From positions 35,788 through 99,787 of the forward strand of contig JAFULR010000017.1 in NCBI GenBank assembly GCA_017483195.1: DNA of 64,000 nt. The letters are read 5' to 3'. Numbering within the stretch: position 1 is the first letter of the stretch; every line of letters starts with the position of its first letter. Below, piece by piece: positions 35,714 through 54,557 of the stretch. Under the pieces are notes generated by a model that was not told where the DNA came from, searched no databases, and was given only the letters and a program-made list of their open reading frames with translations. Both the position numbers and the translations under genes were made by a program. This DNA comes from Clostridia bacterium (lineage in GTDB: Bacteria; Bacillota; Clostridia; Oscillospirales; CAG-272).

Positions 35714-37852
35714 ATGAAAAGATTATTGGCTATAATCATTTTATTCTCTATGATTATGGGGATGCTGATCTCGTGTGATATATTTGATCCCACAGGAAGC
35801 AGTACTTCATCGAGCACATCGGGCTCCACAAGCTCCAATTCGGGAACTACTACGACACCCGGTAGCTCAACTACCTCCTCCACAAGCTCAACTACAACCG
35901 ACAAGGGGGAAGAACCTCCTGTAAAGGGCGCTGTTGAGGTGGTTAATATAGGATATTCCTTTGAAACTGTATTTTTTGAGTGGCTTCCTTATGAAAGTGC
36001 AACCGAATATAACGTTTATTGCGACGGCAAGAGGGTTGACTCGGAGCTTATCAGAAATTATGGCTCTTATTACAGATGCGACGTTCTCGGTATTACTGCC
36101 GGAGAGCATGAAATCGAGCTTGTTCCCGTTAGGGACGGTGTGGAAATGGAGTCCGCAGTAACCTCTTTTAAGGAAACAGCTATAGCTCACGTTAGAGAGG
36201 GATTTGGCTTTGTTGGCGGTAGCGCAAGCGGCGCTTACAATGATGACGGAACGCTTAAAACCGGTGCGCAGGTCATTTACGTAACCGCGGATAATGCGAA
36301 AACCGTGACTGCTACAGTAAACGGCGCGACACAGACGGGACTTCAGACCATCCTTGACGCAAAGCAAAAGGCGAATACGTCAAATGATATTTTGTGTATT
36401 CGTATAATAGGAATGATCACGGCCTCCGACATGGATCATTTTTCAAGCTCCGCTCAGGGAATTCAGATCAAGGGCAGAAGCGCATACACCGATATGAATA
36501 TCACCATTGAGGGCGTTGGAAACGATGCGACCGTTAACGGTTTTGGATTTTTGATCAGAAACTGCAAGAACGTTGAAATTCGAAATATCGGTATTATGAA
36601 CTTTATGGACGACGGTATTTCCGTTGACACCGACAACCGAAATTTGTGGCTTCACAATATAGATTTCTTCTATGGAAAGCCCGGTAGCGATTCCGACCAG
36701 AACAAGGGCGACGGTTCACTTGATATCAAGCATTCTCAGTATATAACCGTTTCGTTCAATCATTTCTTTGATTCCGGAAAGGCTTGCCTTCTTGACGCTT
36801 CAACCGGCGCAAGCGCGGATTATATTTCGTATCATCATAACTGGTTCGACCATTCCGATTCGCGTCATCCGAGAGTGAGAAATGCGAACGTTCACGTTTA
36901 TAATAATTTCTACGACGGAGTAGCTAAATACGGTATAGGCGCAGCCGGCGGCGGAAGCTCCGTATTCTCCGAGGCTAACTATTTTATGAACACTAAATAT
37001 CCCATGCTTACCTCAATGCAGGGAAGTGATATAGCCGGTGACGGAGAGGGCACGTTCTCGGGTGAGGACGGCGGTGTTATCAAGAGCTTTGGTGACTACA
37101 TCGTTGGCGGCACGTTCGTTCCTTACAGCGCGTCCAACAAGGTAGAATACGATGCTTACGTTGCTTCGAGCAGGGATGAGGTGTTGTCCGCCGCTATCAC
37201 CTCAAAGAAGGGTGGACACACATACAGCAATTTCGATACAAGCGATAAAATGTATGATTATAATGCTCAGAGCGCCGAGGATGCCATGAACACGGTAAAG
37301 GCTTATGCGGGACGAGTTCAGGGCGGAGATCTTAAGTGGGAGTTTACGAATTCAGATGACTCCTCCTATTCAATCAATTCAGGATTGAAATCCGCCATAG
37401 CCGCATATAAGAGCTCTCTTGTTTCAACTAACGTGGGTAATAATTCCTCAAGCGGCGGTAATGTTGATGAAGGCGGCGGCGAGGTTACGCCCACGCCAAC
37501 ACCCACACCCACGCCTGAAGGAAGAATAGTACATAACTTCCACACAAGCGGAAAGAATTCTGATTTCTTTAAGATCAACGGAAATCTTTCATCGGGCAAG
37601 GGCACCATTACTTATGACGGCATGAGTCTTACTCAATGTCTTAAAATCGAAAGCTCCACGTCAATTACGTTTACGTTGACGGAGAAGAGAACATTAACGC
37701 TTGTCTTTAAGGAAGTGGGTAAGAATATAAAGATCAATGGAGAAAAATACGCTACCGACGGCAACGGTGTTATTACCGTTGAGCTTGAAGTGGGCAGCTA
37801 TTCGATCACAAAGGCTGATTCGATGAATCTCTATTATATGATTCTTGAATAA
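35714..37852 (+). CDS. Secreted lipoprotein pectate lyase, PL1 family
   Basis: 712 aa from ATG 35714 (AAAGGAAG upstream). Signal peptide ends at lipobox MLISC, so the enzyme is probably membrane-anchored outside. A Ser/Thr linker (residues 28-68) leads to an Fn3-like domain (about 75-165), then the right-handed beta-helix lyase: NGFGFLIRNCKNVEIRNIGI, GDGSLDIKHSQYITVSFNHF and HHNWFDHSDSRHPRVRNANV. Arg in RHPRVR is the likely catalytic base, and acidic residues near DGSLDIKH bind calcium. A TPTPTPTPTP linker leads to a C-terminal beta domain of about 110 residues, perhaps carbohydrate-binding. It indicates growth on plant pectin. Confidence 0.9.
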   Translation: MKRLLAIIILFSMIMGMLISCDIFDPTGSSTSSSTSGSTSSNSGTTTTPGSSTTSSTSSTTTDKGEEPPVKGAVEVVNIGYSFETVFFEWLPYESATEYNVYCDGKRVDSELIRNYGSYYRCDVLGITAGEHEIELVPVRDGVEMESAVTSFKETAIAHVREGFGFVGGSASGAYNDDGTLKTGAQVIYVTADNAKTVTATVNGATQTGLQTILDAKQKANTSNDILCIRIIGMITASDMDHFSSSAQGIQIKGRSAYTDMNITIEGVGNDATVNGFGFLIRNCKNVEIRNIGIMNFMDDGISVDTDNRNLWLHNIDFFYGKPGSDSDQNKGDGSLDIKHSQYITVSFNHFFDSGKACLLDASTGASADYISYHHNWFDHSDSRHPRVRNANVHVYNNFYDGVAKYGIGAAGGGSSVFSEANYFMNTKYPMLTSMQGSDIAGDGEGTFSGEDGGVIKSFGDYIVGGTFVPYSASNKVEYDAYVASSRDEVLSAAITSKKGGHTYSNFDTSDKMYDYNAQSAEDAMNTVKAYAGRVQGGDLKWEFTNSDDSSYSINSGLKSAIAAYKSSLVSTNVGNNSSSGGNVDEGGGEVTPTPTPTPTPEGRIVHNFHTSGKNSDFFKINGNLSSGKGTITYDGMSLTQCLKIESSTSITFTLTEKRTLTLVFKEVGKNIKINGEKYATDGNGVITVELEVGSYSITKADSMNLYYMILE

Positions 37853-48996: not shown

Positions 48997-49025
48997 AAAC
49001 CGCTCGGATTTCCGAGCGGTTTTTT
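48997..49025. terminator. Bidirectional terminator
   Basis: AAACCGCTCGG and CCGAGCGGTTT with a short loop between convergent genes, T-run on the plus strand. Confidence 0.9.
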
Positions 49026-49692
49026 AGATTTTTTTGATTATATTATCTGTGCTTTTAACAATGCAATCCGCAGGATACACTCCGCGAAGGGAGGTGAGCG
49101 GATATACCGCGGTGTTTTTGCCGACCACGGTTCCGGGATTCAGGACGGAATTGCATCCGATATCCGAGCCGTCGCCGAGGAAAGCTCCCACCTTTCGCAG
49201 ATCGGTATGGTGATCTGCCTCACCGTGGATCACGACGTCGGATCTATCGCTCTTAAGATTTGAACAGATGACTCCCGCGCCTGTGTGCGCCCTGTTTCCG
49301 AGGATCGAGTCGCCTATGTAGTTATAGTGGGGCGCCTGCACGCCGTCGAGCAGGATGCAGTTCTTCAGCTCCGTGGAATTACCTATAACGCAGTTGCTTC
49401 CGATGATAACGTTTCCTCTGATATACGCGCCGGGACGGAGCTGTGTGCCGTGACCTATAACGGCGGGTGGCTCGATCGTTGCGTTCTTTGATATTTTTAC
49501 GTTTTCTCCGATGAGGATACCCTCGGCATACAAGGTATAACCCGGAAGTCCTTCCTCAGTAAGCTTTTTGGCGAGCTCCTTTATTTTAGGGAGTATGTGC
49601 CAAGGGTACTCACATTCATCAAAAAGGGAAGTGAGATGGGGTATGGAGCAATCGAAAAGCTCCTTTGTTTTTACAAGCTTATTCAATCGCAT
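49024..49692 (-). CDS. Left-handed beta-helix acyltransferase, GlmU C-terminal-like
   Basis: 222 aa. After 45 helical residues the protein is hexapeptide repeats (LIGENVKISKNATIEPPAVI, then IIGSNCVIGNSTELKNCILL) with an insertion loop DGVQAPHYNYIGDSILGNRA like the acetyl-acceptor region of GlmU and sugar-1-phosphate acetyltransferases. No N-terminal uridyltransferase domain is present. The start overlaps the XRE-GlmM stop by 14 bp. Together they could turn GlcN-6-P into GlcN-1-P and then GlcNAc-1-P, on the way to UDP-GlcNAc. That pathway role is inferred from the pairing; another sugar is possible. Confidence 0.82.
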   Translation of the reverse strand: MRLNKLVKTKELFDCSIPHLTSLFDECEYPWHILPKIKELAKKLTEEGLPGYTLYAEGILIGENVKISKNATIEPPAVIGHGTQLRPGAYIRGNVIIGSNCVIGNSTELKNCILLDGVQAPHYNYIGDSILGNRAHTGAGVICSNLKSDRSDVVIHGEADHHTDLRKVGAFLGDGSDIGCNSVLNPGTVVGKNTAVYPLTSLRGVYPADCIVKSTDNIIKKI

Positions 49693-51271
49693 AGCCTCCT
49701 TCCGTGACCGCTATTGCTACGGTATCGGCATATTCGCGGCATTTTTCCTCGCTCTCGCATTCTATCATAATGCGGATGAGCGGCTCGGTTCCGCTTGGAC
49801 GGAGAAGCACGCGTCCGTTACCAGCTATAAGAGCCTCGACCGATTTTACGCTTTCGAGAACGTTTTTGTCGTTCATTGCAGCGTCCTTGTCGGTAACCCT
49901 TACATTTTTGAGATATTGGGGATAAACAGTTACGTCCTCGACGAGTCTTGAAAGGGAGGATTTGCTATCGCAGATCTCCTCGCAGACCATAATGGCGGTC
50001 AAAAGTCCGTCGCCTGTGGTGGCGTATTTTTTGAGGATTATATGTCCCGATTGCTCGCCGCCGATGGAGTAATCGCCCTCCTGCATACACTCGTAAACGA
50101 AACGGTCGCCGACCTTTGTCTGAATACACTTGATGCCGAGCTTATCAAGGCTTGCAACAAAGCCGCTGTTTGACATTACCGTTGCAACAAGAGTGTTATC
50201 GTTAAGCATTCCGCGTGATTTCAAGCGCTTTGCAAGAAGGTACATAATTTTATCGCCGTCCACCACGTTGCCCTTTTCGTCCACCGCAAGACAGCGGTCG
50301 CAGTCGCCGTCAAAGGCAAATCCCATATCAAGGTGCTTTTCGCGGACGAGCTTGACAAGATTTTCAAGGTGAGTTGAGCCGCAATTTTTATTGATATTCA
50401 TACCGTCGGGCTCGTCGCCTATAACGTAGAGCTGAGCGCCGAGCGCTCCGAATACCGCTCTTGCGATCGACCAGGATGCGCCGTTTGCACAGTCAAGACC
50501 GATGCGGAGCTTCTTATAGGAATTTGAAGCAAGGGAGATGAGATATCCGATGTATCTGTTTCTGCCGCTCACGTGGTCGTGTATGGAGCCTATGCGCTCG
50601 CCGGTCGGGAGGGGAAGATCTCCCTCGGTAATTCCGAGATAGGCGAGATCGCCGTCAAGATAAGCCTCAATAAGCGAGGTGGTATGATCGTCGAGCTTTT
50701 CGCCGTAACGGTTTATTACTTTAATGCCATTATCGTAAAATGGGTTGTGGGATGCGGTGATCATAACTCCGCAGTCAAATCCGTCGAGTCTTGTGACGTA
50801 TGAAACACTTGGCGTTGTGGTGACGTGAAGGATGTACGCATCGCCACCGCTTGCGGCAATACCGGAGGCTATTGCGTATTCAAGCATATAGCTTGAGCGA
50901 CGGGTGTCCTTGCCTATAACAATTCGCGGGCGAGCACTCTCTCTTTGATAGTACCAGCCCAAGAATCTGCCGACCTTATATGCGTGCATTGAGGTAAGCC
51001 CAACGTTTGATTCACCGCGGAAGCCGTCCGTTCCGAAATATTTACCTGCCTGTCTTTTAGCATCCTTGATTTCAATATCTTCTCTGAGCAGAGCATCGCA
51101 GGAGACGTGAAAAATATCGGCTATTTGCAGTATCTTATCGATCTGCGGAACTGCCTGATCCATCTCCCATTTGGAAACGGATTGGCGCGAAACACCGAGC
51201 ATATCCGCAAGCTTTTCCTGGGAAATTCCCACACCGTTTCTGAGCAGAGTAATTTTTGATCCTATTGTCAT
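49679..51271 (-). CDS. XRE helix-turn-helix domain fused to phosphoglucosamine mutase (GlmM-like)
   Basis: 530 aa. Residues 1-60 are a Cro/CI-type helix-turn-helix (ISQEKLADMLGVSRQSVSKW, then the usual VPQIDKILQIADIFHVSCDAL). From about residue 76 (AGKYFGTDGFRGESN) the rest is a full hexose-phosphate mutase: catalytic Ser in MITASHNPFYDNGIK, metal loop FDGDCDRC, GGEQSGHI and RPSGTEPLIRIM. Normal GlmM has about 450 aa and no HTH. The fusion is continuous and in frame. A dyad just after its -10 box (51297-51312) is a likely operator, so it may sense amino-sugar phosphate and control its own operon. The regulatory role is inferred; catalysis is well supported. Confidence 0.88.
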   Translation of the reverse strand: MTIGSKITLLRNGVGISQEKLADMLGVSRQSVSKWEMDQAVPQIDKILQIADIFHVSCDALLREDIEIKDAKRQAGKYFGTDGFRGESNVGLTSMHAYKVGRFLGWYYQRESARPRIVIGKDTRRSSYMLEYAIASGIAASGGDAYILHVTTTPSVSYVTRLDGFDCGVMITASHNPFYDNGIKVINRYGEKLDDHTTSLIEAYLDGDLAYLGITEGDLPLPTGERIGSIHDHVSGRNRYIGYLISLASNSYKKLRIGLDCANGASWSIARAVFGALGAQLYVIGDEPDGMNINKNCGSTHLENLVKLVREKHLDMGFAFDGDCDRCLAVDEKGNVVDGDKIMYLLAKRLKSRGMLNDNTLVATVMSNSGFVASLDKLGIKCIQTKVGDRFVYECMQEGDYSIGGEQSGHIILKKYATTGDGLLTAIMVCEEICDSKSSLSRLVEDVTVYPQYLKNVRVTDKDAAMNDKNVLESVKSVEALIAGNGRVLLRPSGTEPLIRIMIECESEEKCREYADTVAIAVTEGGYAIE

Positions 51272-51801: not shown

Positions 51802-51830
51802 TTGACAAGCTTTTTGCATTGTGTTAAAAT
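51802..51830 (+). promoter_or_regulatory. Promoter of the lysine transporter operon
   Basis: TTGACA (51802-51807), 17-bp spacer, TAAAAT (51825-51830), upstream of the riboswitch. Confidence 0.8.
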
Positions 51831-52053: not shown

Positions 52054-52086
52054 GTCGGGGCACTTTGCTCCGACTTATTTTATTTG
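52054..52086 (+). terminator. Riboswitch-controlled terminator
   Basis: GTCGGGGC, ACTTT loop, GCTCCGAC (8 bp with one G-T), then TTATTTTATTT, 43 bp before the first gene. Confidence 0.8.
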
Positions 52087-52116: not shown

Positions 52117-53007
52117 ATGAAAAACATCAGACTTATTTCCGTCCTTGCAGTTATCTGCATAATTTTTGGCGCGCTTGCTCTTGTGGCTTGTCCCGAAGAA
52201 AGAACTCCCGTTGATATCAGCGGCGCGACAGATCTTTCCGGCCTTGCTGGCGCAACGATTGCCGCTCAGTCAGGTACCTTCCACCTTGATGCTCTTAATA
52301 CACTTGGTAACGTAAATGTTAAAGAGTATGAGGACTTTTCAAAGCTTCTTGTTGCACTTCAGGCGGGCGCTATAGATGGATACGTTGCAGAGGAACCCAC
52401 AGCTCTTTCAGTAGTTCTCTCCGATCCTACACTCGGCTATATCCCCCTTGTGAATAATTCCACCGGCTTTACTGCTACCGATGCGGATACGGGAATTGCA
52501 GTTGCCTTCAAAACAGGCAGTGATATGGTTGCTAAGGTCAACCCCGTGATTGCGACAATCAGCGCGGAAACACGCTCGGCTCTTATGGCTCAGATCGTTA
52601 CTATGAGCGAGGATACCGACAAGGCACTTGGCGAGGACATTGCTCTTGCAAGCGACAACACAGATACATCAAAAGGCACTCTCAGAATCGCTATGGAGTG
52701 CAACTACCAGCCCTTTAACTGGACACAGACAACTGACGTAAACGGTGCGGTTAAGATCTCAAATGCGTCCGGTATGTATGCAAACGGTTACGACGTTCAG
52801 GTCGCAAAGTATATTGCTGCGGAGCTTGGTATGGCACTTGAGGTTTATGCTGTTGAATGGGACAGTCTTATCCCCGGTCTTCAGGCAGGAACATACGATG
52901 GAATTATCGCCGGTATGAGCCCCACCGCTGACAGAGAAGAGGTCGTTGACTTTACAGACTGCTACTACAATTCAAATCTTGTAATTATTTATAAAAAGGC
53001 TAACTGA
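52117..53007 (+). CDS. Lysine ABC transporter binding lipoprotein, circularly permuted
   Basis: 296 aa. Signal peptide with lipobox LVAC (Cys25). The two parts of a type II (SBP_bac_3) binding protein occur in reverse order. Residues 37-170 are the part normally in the second half: DLSGLAGATIAAQSGTFHLD, LLVALQAGAIDGYVAEEPTA and DTGIAVAFKTGSDMVAKVNP. Residues 194-296 are the normal N-terminal lobe: GTLRIAMECNYQPFNW, GYDVQVAKYIAAELGM, DGIIAGMSPTADREEVVDFT and a stop after VIIYKKAN, exactly where lobe 2 usually follows. All elements occur once, so this is a permutation rather than a truncation. It delivers the ligand to the permease encoded 2 bp downstream. Confidence 0.88.
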   Translation: MKNIRLISVLAVICIIFGALALVACPEERTPVDISGATDLSGLAGATIAAQSGTFHLDALNTLGNVNVKEYEDFSKLLVALQAGAIDGYVAEEPTALSVVLSDPTLGYIPLVNNSTGFTATDADTGIAVAFKTGSDMVAKVNPVIATISAETRSALMAQIVTMSEDTDKALGEDIALASDNTDTSKGTLRIAMECNYQPFNWTQTTDVNGAVKISNASGMYANGYDVQVAKYIAAELGMALEVYAVEWDSLIPGLQAGTYDGIIAGMSPTADREEVVDFTDCYYNSNLVIIYKKAN

Positions 53008-53009
53008 TA

Positions 53010-53786
53010 ATGGATTTTTTTCAAAACGTAATTGACATTTTAACAAAATACCATTCCTATCTGCTTGAGGGACTTGGTTATACGATGCTTATAGCACTTG
53101 TAGGCACGATCCTCGGTCTTGTTATAGGACTTCTTATGGGTATAGTAAAGACTATTCCCGCATCAAAAAACGCATTTTTAAGATTTTTGCAAAAGATCAT
53201 CAATTTTATAATTGCTTGCTACGTTGAAATATTCCGTGGAACGCCCATGATGGTTCAGTCAATGGTTATTTTCTGGGGATATGCGTTTATGAATAACGGA
53301 ACTACACTTCCTCTTATCCCTGCAGGTATATTCATCGTTTCCATCAACACGGGCGCGTATATGACGGAGATCGTTCGAGGCGGTATCATATCCGTTGACA
53401 AGGGTCAGTTTGAGGGCGCTTACAGTGTTGGTATGACGCATTGGCAGACAATGATACACGTTATCATACCTCAGGTTATGAGAAATATTCTTCCGTCTAT
53501 TTCAAATGAGTTCGTTATAAATATTAAGGATACGTCGGTTCTTAACGTTATCGGTGTTATGGAGCTTTATTATATGGCGAACAAGATACAGATGATGACC
53601 TGGGATATTTTTGAAACGTATCTCATCGTTTGTGTTATGTACTTTATTATGACTTTCAGTGTAACAAGAATTCTCCGCCTTTGCGAAAAGAAGCTTGCGG
53701 GCAGCGATTCTTACACGATTTGCGGATCACAGTCCGATCCCGATGCGGAGATCCACGTTAAAAAGGAAGAGAAGGTGTTCAGATGA
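53010..53786 (+). CDS. Lysine ABC transporter permease (HisM/ArtQ family)
   Basis: 258 aa with about five spans. The opening [20 protein letters not shown] and the segment [14 protein letters not shown] are typical of polar amino-acid permeases. The EAA loop [20 protein letters not shown] binds the ATPase. The acidic C-terminal tail ([16 protein letters not shown]) is longer than usual. The stop overlaps the ATPase start by 4 bp. Substrate is inferred as lysine from the upstream riboswitch. Confidence 0.93.
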
Positions 53787-54520
53787 TGGAAAGCGTTATT
53801 ACACTTAAATCCTTGAAAAAAAGCTTTGCGGACCGCGAGATACTTAAGGGTATTGATCTTGAGATAAAGAAAAACGAGGTTATCTCGGTAATCGGTTCAT
53901 CCGGCTCGGGCAAAAGCACAATGCTTCGCTGTATCAATCTTCTTGAGGATGTCACAAGCGGAGATATAACCTTTTACGGCAAGAGCGTTATCGGCGGTGA
54001 TATCGATATCAACGAATACCGATCAAAAATAGTTATGGTATTCCAGCAGTTCAATCTGTTCAATAATATGACGGTGCTTGACAACTGCGTTCGTCCACAG
54101 ACCGTGGTTCTTAAAAGAAGCAAGGAAGAGGCTAAGGAGATAGCAATAAAATATCTTAAAAAGGTTGGAATGGCAGAGTATATCAACGCGCGTCCCGCTC
54201 AGCTTTCGGGCGGTATGAAGCAGAGAGTTGCCATTGCGCGCGCTCTTTCGATGAACCCCGAGGTGATACTCTTTGATGAGCCCACGTCGGCTCTTGACCC
54301 TGAGATGGTAGGAGAGGTTCTTGACGTTATGCGCGAGCTTGCCTCCGAAGGTCTTACTATGATAGTCGTTACCCACGAAATGGCGTTTGCACGTGACGTG
54401 AGCGATAGAGTTATCTTCATTGACGACGGTGTTATTTGCGAGCAGGGGGATCCCAAGGAATTTTTTGCAAGTCCCAAAACAGAGAGAGCGAAAGCATTTT
54501 TGTCAAGATTTTTACAATAA
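53783..54520 (+). CDS. Lysine ABC transporter ATPase (GlnQ/HisP family)
   Basis: 245 aa. Walker [10 protein letters not shown] near 36, Q-loop [16 protein letters not shown], signature [15 protein letters not shown], Walker [15 protein letters not shown] and H-loop [16 protein letters not shown]: a complete, canonical amino-acid importer ATPase. Two adjacent ATGs (53783, 53786) are possible starts inside the permease end. It powers uptake with the permease and the permuted binding protein. Confidence 0.95.
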
Positions 54521-54522
54521 AA

Positions 54523-54557
54523 CAAGAGGACACCGAGGGTGTCCTCTTTAATTTTTT
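54523..54557 (+). terminator. Terminator after the lysine transporter
   Basis: AAGAGGACACC, GAG loop, GGTGTCCTCTT, then T-rich sequence. Confidence 0.9.

Follow-up and report, generated by a model that had tools for sequence, protein, structure and literature searches.

We analysed a stretch of 64,000 nucleotides (hereafter the window; positions 35,788 to 99,787 of contig JAFULR010000017.1, assembly GCA_017483195.1) from a Clostridia bacterium of the GTDB lineage Oscillospirales; CAG-272, and showed that its gene at 52117..53007 encodes a circularly permuted family-3 (SBP_bac_3) substrate-binding lipoprotein. The segments of this protein run lobe 2, former C-terminal segment, N-terminal half of lobe 1, and thus depart from the canonical order. 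In our judgement it is highly probable that this permuted two-lobed clamp, likely a lysine-capturing one, serves the adjoining importer and that the form arose once, most likely by duplication and half-loss.

A previous reading of the letters alone (the sequence-only reading) had proposed that each landmark of a type II binding protein is present once but in swapped order, and Pfam, AncQR, a rotation scan and a doubled alignment all agreed with it. The protein matched Pfam SBP_bac_3 (PF00497) with 78.7 bits against a cut-off of 26.4, and profile positions 2-93, corresponding to the N-terminal half, fell on residues 190-295 at the end of the chain. Against AncQR (4zv1), residues 186-296 aligned with chain positions 9-106 and residues 39-146 with 114-215, in reversed order. 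For the rotation scan, residues 30-296 were re-cut every 5 residues and scored against a canonical profile of 247 positions, which was built from 68 sequences from genome loci and six others; the canonical proteins L138, L141, L142 and L143 were left out of the profile and included in the 91-row tree described below. Re-cutting at 170-185 gave a single contiguous match of 288.8 bits over profile positions 1-242 of 247, the cut at 165 gave 288.4 bits and the remaining cuts tried gave less, compared with 175.8 bits for the best piece and 276.6 bits for all pieces summed in the native order. The doubled window sequence aligned straight through with the canonical protein L023 at 255 bits, its halves separately at 154 and 119 bits. 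The cut falls at the first lobe crossing, between profile positions 107 and ~110, and the C-terminus (...LVIIYKKAN) sits there, where the sequence-only reading had placed the chain end. Both lobes occur once and the pocket residues are conserved. Invariant in 57 rows were T54, F55, H56, E92, E93, E194, Y197, W202, W248, A265-P269 and R273; in LAO and ArgBP structures the equivalent positions form the lining of the ligand pocket. The lipobox Cys25 precedes lobe 2, and the lipoprotein signal therefore stands at the new N-terminus as had been stated; this cysteine is invariant in the 21-row alignment A1 and nearly so in the 57-row alignment A3.

Structure prediction, which had been suggested as a check, pointed in the same direction. 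The AlphaFold2 model had a mean predicted local distance difference test score (pLDDT) of 92.9 with both lobes confident, so the worry that the fold might not close into two lobes was not borne out. Residues 32-126 of the model matched chain positions 118-208 of 5t0w (VIA-align) and residues 184-286 matched positions 6-95 of 4prs, so the halves stand in swapped order relative to canonical proteins. As far as is known, type II fold proteins make up both listings, of 60 sequence matches and of 50 structure rows; the absence of Type I, Cluster B proteins from such lists is no evidence against that fold. Taken in chain order over its full length, the model matched OpuAC best, despite the absence of a Pfam match of the window protein to OpuAC (PF04069) at E 0.001.

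The lysine riboswitch (RF00168), a permease gene and an ATPase gene all adjoin the binding-protein gene, which confirms the operon context described before. This riboswitch is the sole one of its kind detected in the source genome, a draft of 1.34 Mb in 29 contigs and 88.57% complete. Genome samples used for comparison were drawn evenly, and counts refer to the matches listed. Permease and ATPase genes were located downstream in 24 of 24 permuted loci examined, some of them clipped by the end of the contig or locus, and each of the 20 permuted loci tested (13 and 7 in two sets) had a lysine riboswitch upstream. It was also present in all eight tested of the nine nearest canonical orthologs (L024 lay outside the test) and in 18 of 33 canonical loci tested overall (1/1, 7/13 and 10/19). 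From the riboswitch context and the kinship, the window protein is probably specific for lysine. Alternatively, the ligand might be arginine, ornithine or another cationic amino acid, with the riboswitch only coupling the operon to lysine status. Pocket residues alone leave the side-chain preference unsettled and no curated lysine model was matched at its cut-off; the TIGR01096 lysine/arginine/ornithine-binding subfamily model gave 98.1 bits against 256.35 with the native chain order scored. Against this stands the lysine riboswitch at every permuted and every nearest canonical locus tested, and we regard another ligand as unlikely, albeit worth keeping in mind.

Canonical SBP_bac_3 proteins behind lysine riboswitches (such as L021, L023 and L064) are 45-47% identical to the doubled window protein. 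Their operons share the riboswitch and the permease type with the window operon, whereas their chains run lobe 1, lobe 2, lobe 1 C-segment, with two covalent crossings and the anchor on lobe 1. Identity to the window permease is 61-74% for permeases neighbouring the nearest canonical orthologs and 64.5-88.7% for those neighbouring permuted genes; since these identities are similar, the topology appears to have switched without great change in the permease. A tree of the lysine lineage was built from 94 rows (25 permuted, here called group A, and 69 canonical) with the halves joined in canonical order. The permuted rows formed one side of a single branch (100/98) nested among canonical lysine-type proteins, and by this tree the permuted form arose once within them. 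Analysed separately, the two halves agreed in placing the permuted rows in one small neighbourhood, that of the canonical lysine-type proteins L020-L025, L064, L066 and L015. A chimaera of distant paralogs was rejected because both halves landed in this neighbourhood. In the lobe-2-only tree, five canonical rows fell inside the permuted group, which is therefore not strictly one clade there.

Of 196 genomes of the same family, 16 had a listed permuted protein of the lysine type (including two others of the same genus; the protein of G408 is truncated), as had 3 of 394 genomes of the order; among 391 class and 398 phylum genomes, only the source genome had one listed. Several related loci showed arrangements of their own. 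L012 encodes a permuted lysine-type protein of 49% identity in a record labelled Erysipelotrichaceae, which may represent transfer or a misbinned contig. In the canonical lysine operon L072 (G516, same genus), identity to the window proteins is 56% for the permease but 88% for the ATPase, of which 101 residues are visible before the locus ends, as if a joint exchange of binding protein and permease had taken place in the operon. At L042:1973-2204 a canonical relative is fused to the permease, and a T-box leader replaces the lysine riboswitch. In G442:C69, a 47-residue stretch of the lobe 1 N-half of a lysine-type binding protein is matched ~1.3 kb off on the opposite strand; an inversion or a misassembly is possible.

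Tandem and one-and-a-half-copy relatives were found in a distant branch of SBP_bac_3. Group C comprises distant proteins sharing the cut of the window protein, at 14 loci (L129-L134, L148-L154 and L157). In the series INTERMEDIATES, the 120 listed homologs of the group C protein L130 (own entry included) contained 88 permuted proteins and 1 fragment. Another 26 consisted of lobe 2 and the C-segment followed by a full protein (381-404 residues; P0289, P0299, P0318 and P0325 were read), and in 5 a complete protein precedes an additional half of lobe 1 (378-393 residues; P0281, P0283 and P0313 were read). The C-terminus of P0313 is odd and may reflect a frameshift, though it is counted among the five. 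Together, 31 of the 120 are one-and-a-half copies of the same Pfam family; examples, truncated at either tandem end and 378-404 residues long, include P0281, P0283, P0287, P0288, P0289 and P0299. P0281 terminates at the same point as the permuted proteins, and the repeated parts within one chain were 50-71% identical in eight proteins examined. L155 (L155:234-3233) is a triple and L156 (L156:415-2730) a double tandem, each in one frame, and a permease domain was confirmed at the end of L156. The one-and-a-half-copy proteins are known as protein-database predictions: P0299 used as query in 128 genomes gave no whole-length match, and a 397-residue frame in G110 matched 173-347 only. P0299 was matched in different genomes through three stretches, corresponding to the canonical form (~172-394), cut 1 (~5-268) and cut 2 (~105-340). 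These forms are the series predicted by permutation by duplication, located in a distant branch.

The sequence-only reading had derived the permuted protein from duplication followed by loss of the outer halves and had called for a search for a tandem-duplicated ancestor. That proposal is supported by tandem and one-and-a-half-copy forms elsewhere in SBP_bac_3, but neither a tandem nor a one-and-a-half-copy lysine-type protein was found among the 120 listed homologs of the window protein, and no one-and-a-half-copy one among the classified loci, both of these being capped samples. This lends some support to a rival in which halves from two genes were joined in a new order by fission and fusion, without a tandem ancestor; the lobe-2-only tree also leans that way. 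Joining of two genes is nevertheless distinctly unlikely, because both halves place the permuted rows near the same canonical lysine-type proteins and the predicted intermediates occur elsewhere in the family. Tandem duplication with loss of two outer halves is still the most likely route, as the distant intermediates suggest.

As the sequence shows, the clamp chain opens at the first lobe crossing, and its old ends are bridged by a linker of ~20 residues. Each lobe would therefore be continuous, with one covalent strand between the lobes instead of two, and the lipid anchor would be borne by lobe 2 instead of lobe 1, as the predicted model also suggests. Since the pocket residues of both halves are kept, lysine probably closes the clamp as in canonical relatives. 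With only one permease gene, the channel is presumably a homodimer, and the clamp should fit it irrespective of which lobe is anchored. High internal lysine would be expected to halt transcription via the riboswitch and the hairpin behind it. Geometrically, a single crossing plus a linker of 20 residues could allow lobes from two different chains to pair, which would make a domain-swapped dimer the working unit. However, the single-chain prediction was confident for both lobes, and the linker is longer than the one between the binding domains of GlnPQ, which has 14 residues (accessible part of PMC8025302), which makes such a dimer very unlikely.

Permuted order is not peculiar to the window gene, which corrects the sequence-only reading; it is a conserved trait of its relatives, found in 120 of 120 listed homologs (window protein included; 120 listed of 4789 above threshold). 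The near-identical cluster P0010 was found on 18 contigs, the longest of 432 kb, and 15 loci in genome contigs comprised 13 permuted ones, the canonical L015 and the fragment L014. Between the window gene and five relatives, dN (nonsynonymous divergence) was 0.14-0.25 and dS (synonymous divergence) 1.5-1.9, giving a dN/dS of roughly 0.1 that is only approximate because dS is near saturation; as judged from these rates, the intact frame is under purifying selection. Although the source genome is a fragmented draft, the chance of an assembly error joining two genes, or of a pseudogene, is practically negligible given permuted order on many separate contigs and an intact, selected frame. The conserved operon, the confident model and the purifying selection also support the earlier view that the protein is probably functional.

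Other permuted groups were found in the wider family. Grouping A and C under a common origin cost 315 log-likelihood units (p-AU, approximately unbiased test, 7e-63) and grouping A, B and C cost 274 units (p-AU 2e-47); these tests were made after the tree had been seen, with the groups defined earlier by chain order. Since the joint origin of A and C was rejected, the same cut must have arisen at least twice. Group B proteins have their cut at the other of the two crossings, between profile positions ~182 and 197. The second SBP_bac_3 gene of the source genome (L016:523-2094, minus strand; region G000:C4:159025-159879) belongs to this group, has its C-terminal segment first and encodes a binding protein fused to its permease. 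Thus both SBP_bac_3 genes found in this 88.57% complete genome are permuted, each at a different crossing. Near-full-length group B matches were obtained in 39 of 196 family genomes (query start <=28, E <=9e-64) and in 29 of 291 class genomes (query start <=25, end >=286, E <=7e-39). The C-terminal piece came first in 110 of 121 listed group B proteins (own P0121 among them) and not in the other 11. The profile detected the C-segment ahead of lobe 1 at 18 of the 26 loci of group B; at the other 8, including L109 of the source genome, it fell below the profile threshold, and their assignment rests on group B alignment matches and the alignment with 6h30 (GlnPQ). The rotated tree behind the origin tests had 91 rows picked out of a larger set, among them 13 of the 25 permuted rows of group A, 13 of the 14 loci of group C and 17 of the 26 of group B. 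Its rows were aligned on the canonical profile, with group B C-segments cut by fixed offsets. With three states (permuted-1, permuted-2 and canonical), at least 7 changes were counted on it; branching inside groups B and C is soft because of the fixed-offset cuts, the profile alignment and the row L132, which is only 44% filled. We lean, with some reserve, towards a wider reading in which repeated rounds of duplication and loss of halves change the topology of SBP_bac_3 clamps in Clostridia, each cut falling on or close to one of the two crossings. Canonical, tandem, 5'-truncated and 3'-truncated one-and-a-half-copy forms and both permuted end states would then all be extant and either hinge strand dispensable, and the window protein would be one independent arrival, the second protein of the same genome being cut at the other crossing.

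Natural permutation of binding proteins has been described for other families; for SBP_bac_3 we found no such report among the listed results of the literature searched, which mostly excluded subscription papers. TpMglB-2 (Tp0684), a 'Type Ic' glucose-binding protein, is likewise a naturally permuted lipoprotein of an ABC (ATP-binding cassette) importer; according to its authors (accessible part of PMC4990184), it still binds its ligand and still undergoes ligand-induced change, and the permuted part may derive from another gene. It probably differs from the window protein in fold class, being a Type I, Cluster B sugar protein, and it gains a fourth crossing, whereas the window protein loses one of two. 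Glycine-betaine-binding proteins such as OpuAC (2b4l/2b4m), molybdate-binding proteins and CysB are reported to form a circular-permutation family (CPSARST); this relation is a deep structural kinship at <24% identity, for which the accessible part of PMC2395249 reports no intermediates. In GlnPQ (6h30; PMC8025302, in part) the binding domains SBD1-SBD2 are in tandem, and the inner part of the tandem resembles a permuted chain: residues 36-262 of the group C protein L130 aligned with 102-324 of 6h30 (best listed stretch) and 43-275 of the group B protein P0215 with 185-394. GlnPQ differs in carrying two full binding domains linked to the permease. Permutation by duplication predicts full-duplicate and half-truncated intermediates, which are documented for DNA methyltransferases; these and saposin/swaposin are the textbook cases (PMC3320104, accessible part). 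They have unrelated folds, whereas the SBP_bac_3 case concerns a ligand clamp with an altered hinge. The accessible parts of PMC2861598 and PMC9732360 contain nothing on natural permutation, and that of PMC7683729 mentions permutation solely in a reference on Förster resonance energy transfer (FRET) sensors.

Clamp motion in binding proteins is commonly attributed to the two or three strands that link the lobes. In these seemingly functional importers, one of the two crossings, either the first or the second, has apparently been lost in nature, and therefore the role of each crossing could be tested with natural pairs that are ~45-47% identical. The one-and-a-half-copy proteins offer a rare live series for permutation by duplication, and within such a chain two lobe halves may compete for one partner. 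If topology has indeed changed repeatedly, each step of permutation by duplication could be isolated and tested. Natural permutants are also ready-made sensor scaffolds. Routine annotation can miss the permutation, since profile searches see only part of the chain, as with the PF00497 match described above.

Table 1. Features of the lysine-riboswitch operon in the window
Feature	Position	Strand	Basis or remark
Putative sigma-70-type promoter-like site	51802..51830	+	11/12 matches; upstream of riboswitch
Lysine riboswitch aptamer RF00168	51859..52028	+	87 bits, gathering score 30
Terminator-like hairpin, T-rich tail	52054..52074	+	9 pairs, 6 G-C
Circularly permuted SBP_bac_3 substrate-binding lipoprotein, 296 aa	52117..53007	+	ATG start; sequence, profiles, predicted model
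Signal peptide and lipobox, residues 1-25 (LVAC, Cys25)	52117..52191	+	Sequence
Lobe 2, residues ~36-122	52222..52482	+	Canonical SBP profile; model match to 5t0w
Strand 126-132, probably the second and now sole covalent lobe crossing	52492..52512	+	AlphaFold2 secondary structure and canonical ortholog alignment
Former C-terminal segment of lobe 1, residues 133-165	52513..52611	+	Canonical orthologs terminate here
Linker between old C- and N-termini, residues 166-186	52612..52674	+	17-23 residues across permuted rows
Lobe 1 N-terminal half, residues 187-296, now C-terminal	52675..53004	+	Pfam, AncQR, orthologs, 4prs match
Amino-acid ABC permease (BPD_transp_1; cystine/glutamine permease-like), single gene	53010..53786	+	
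ABC ATPase, polar amino-acid type	53783..54520	+	
Terminator-like hairpin 3' of ATPase gene	54524..54548	+	11 pairs

The hairpin between riboswitch and gene is likely the expression platform of the riboswitch; hairpins of its class numbered 6 in the region against 3.3 expected. Promoter-like sites numbered 7 against 6.4 expected in shuffles and are weak evidence alone. Elsewhere in the window (49679-51271, minus strand), a single 530-residue frame encodes a phosphoglucosamine-mutase-like protein with an N-terminal HTH_3 domain, a regulator-enzyme fusion, and overlaps the gene of a hexapeptide-repeat protein (49024-49692) by 14 bases.
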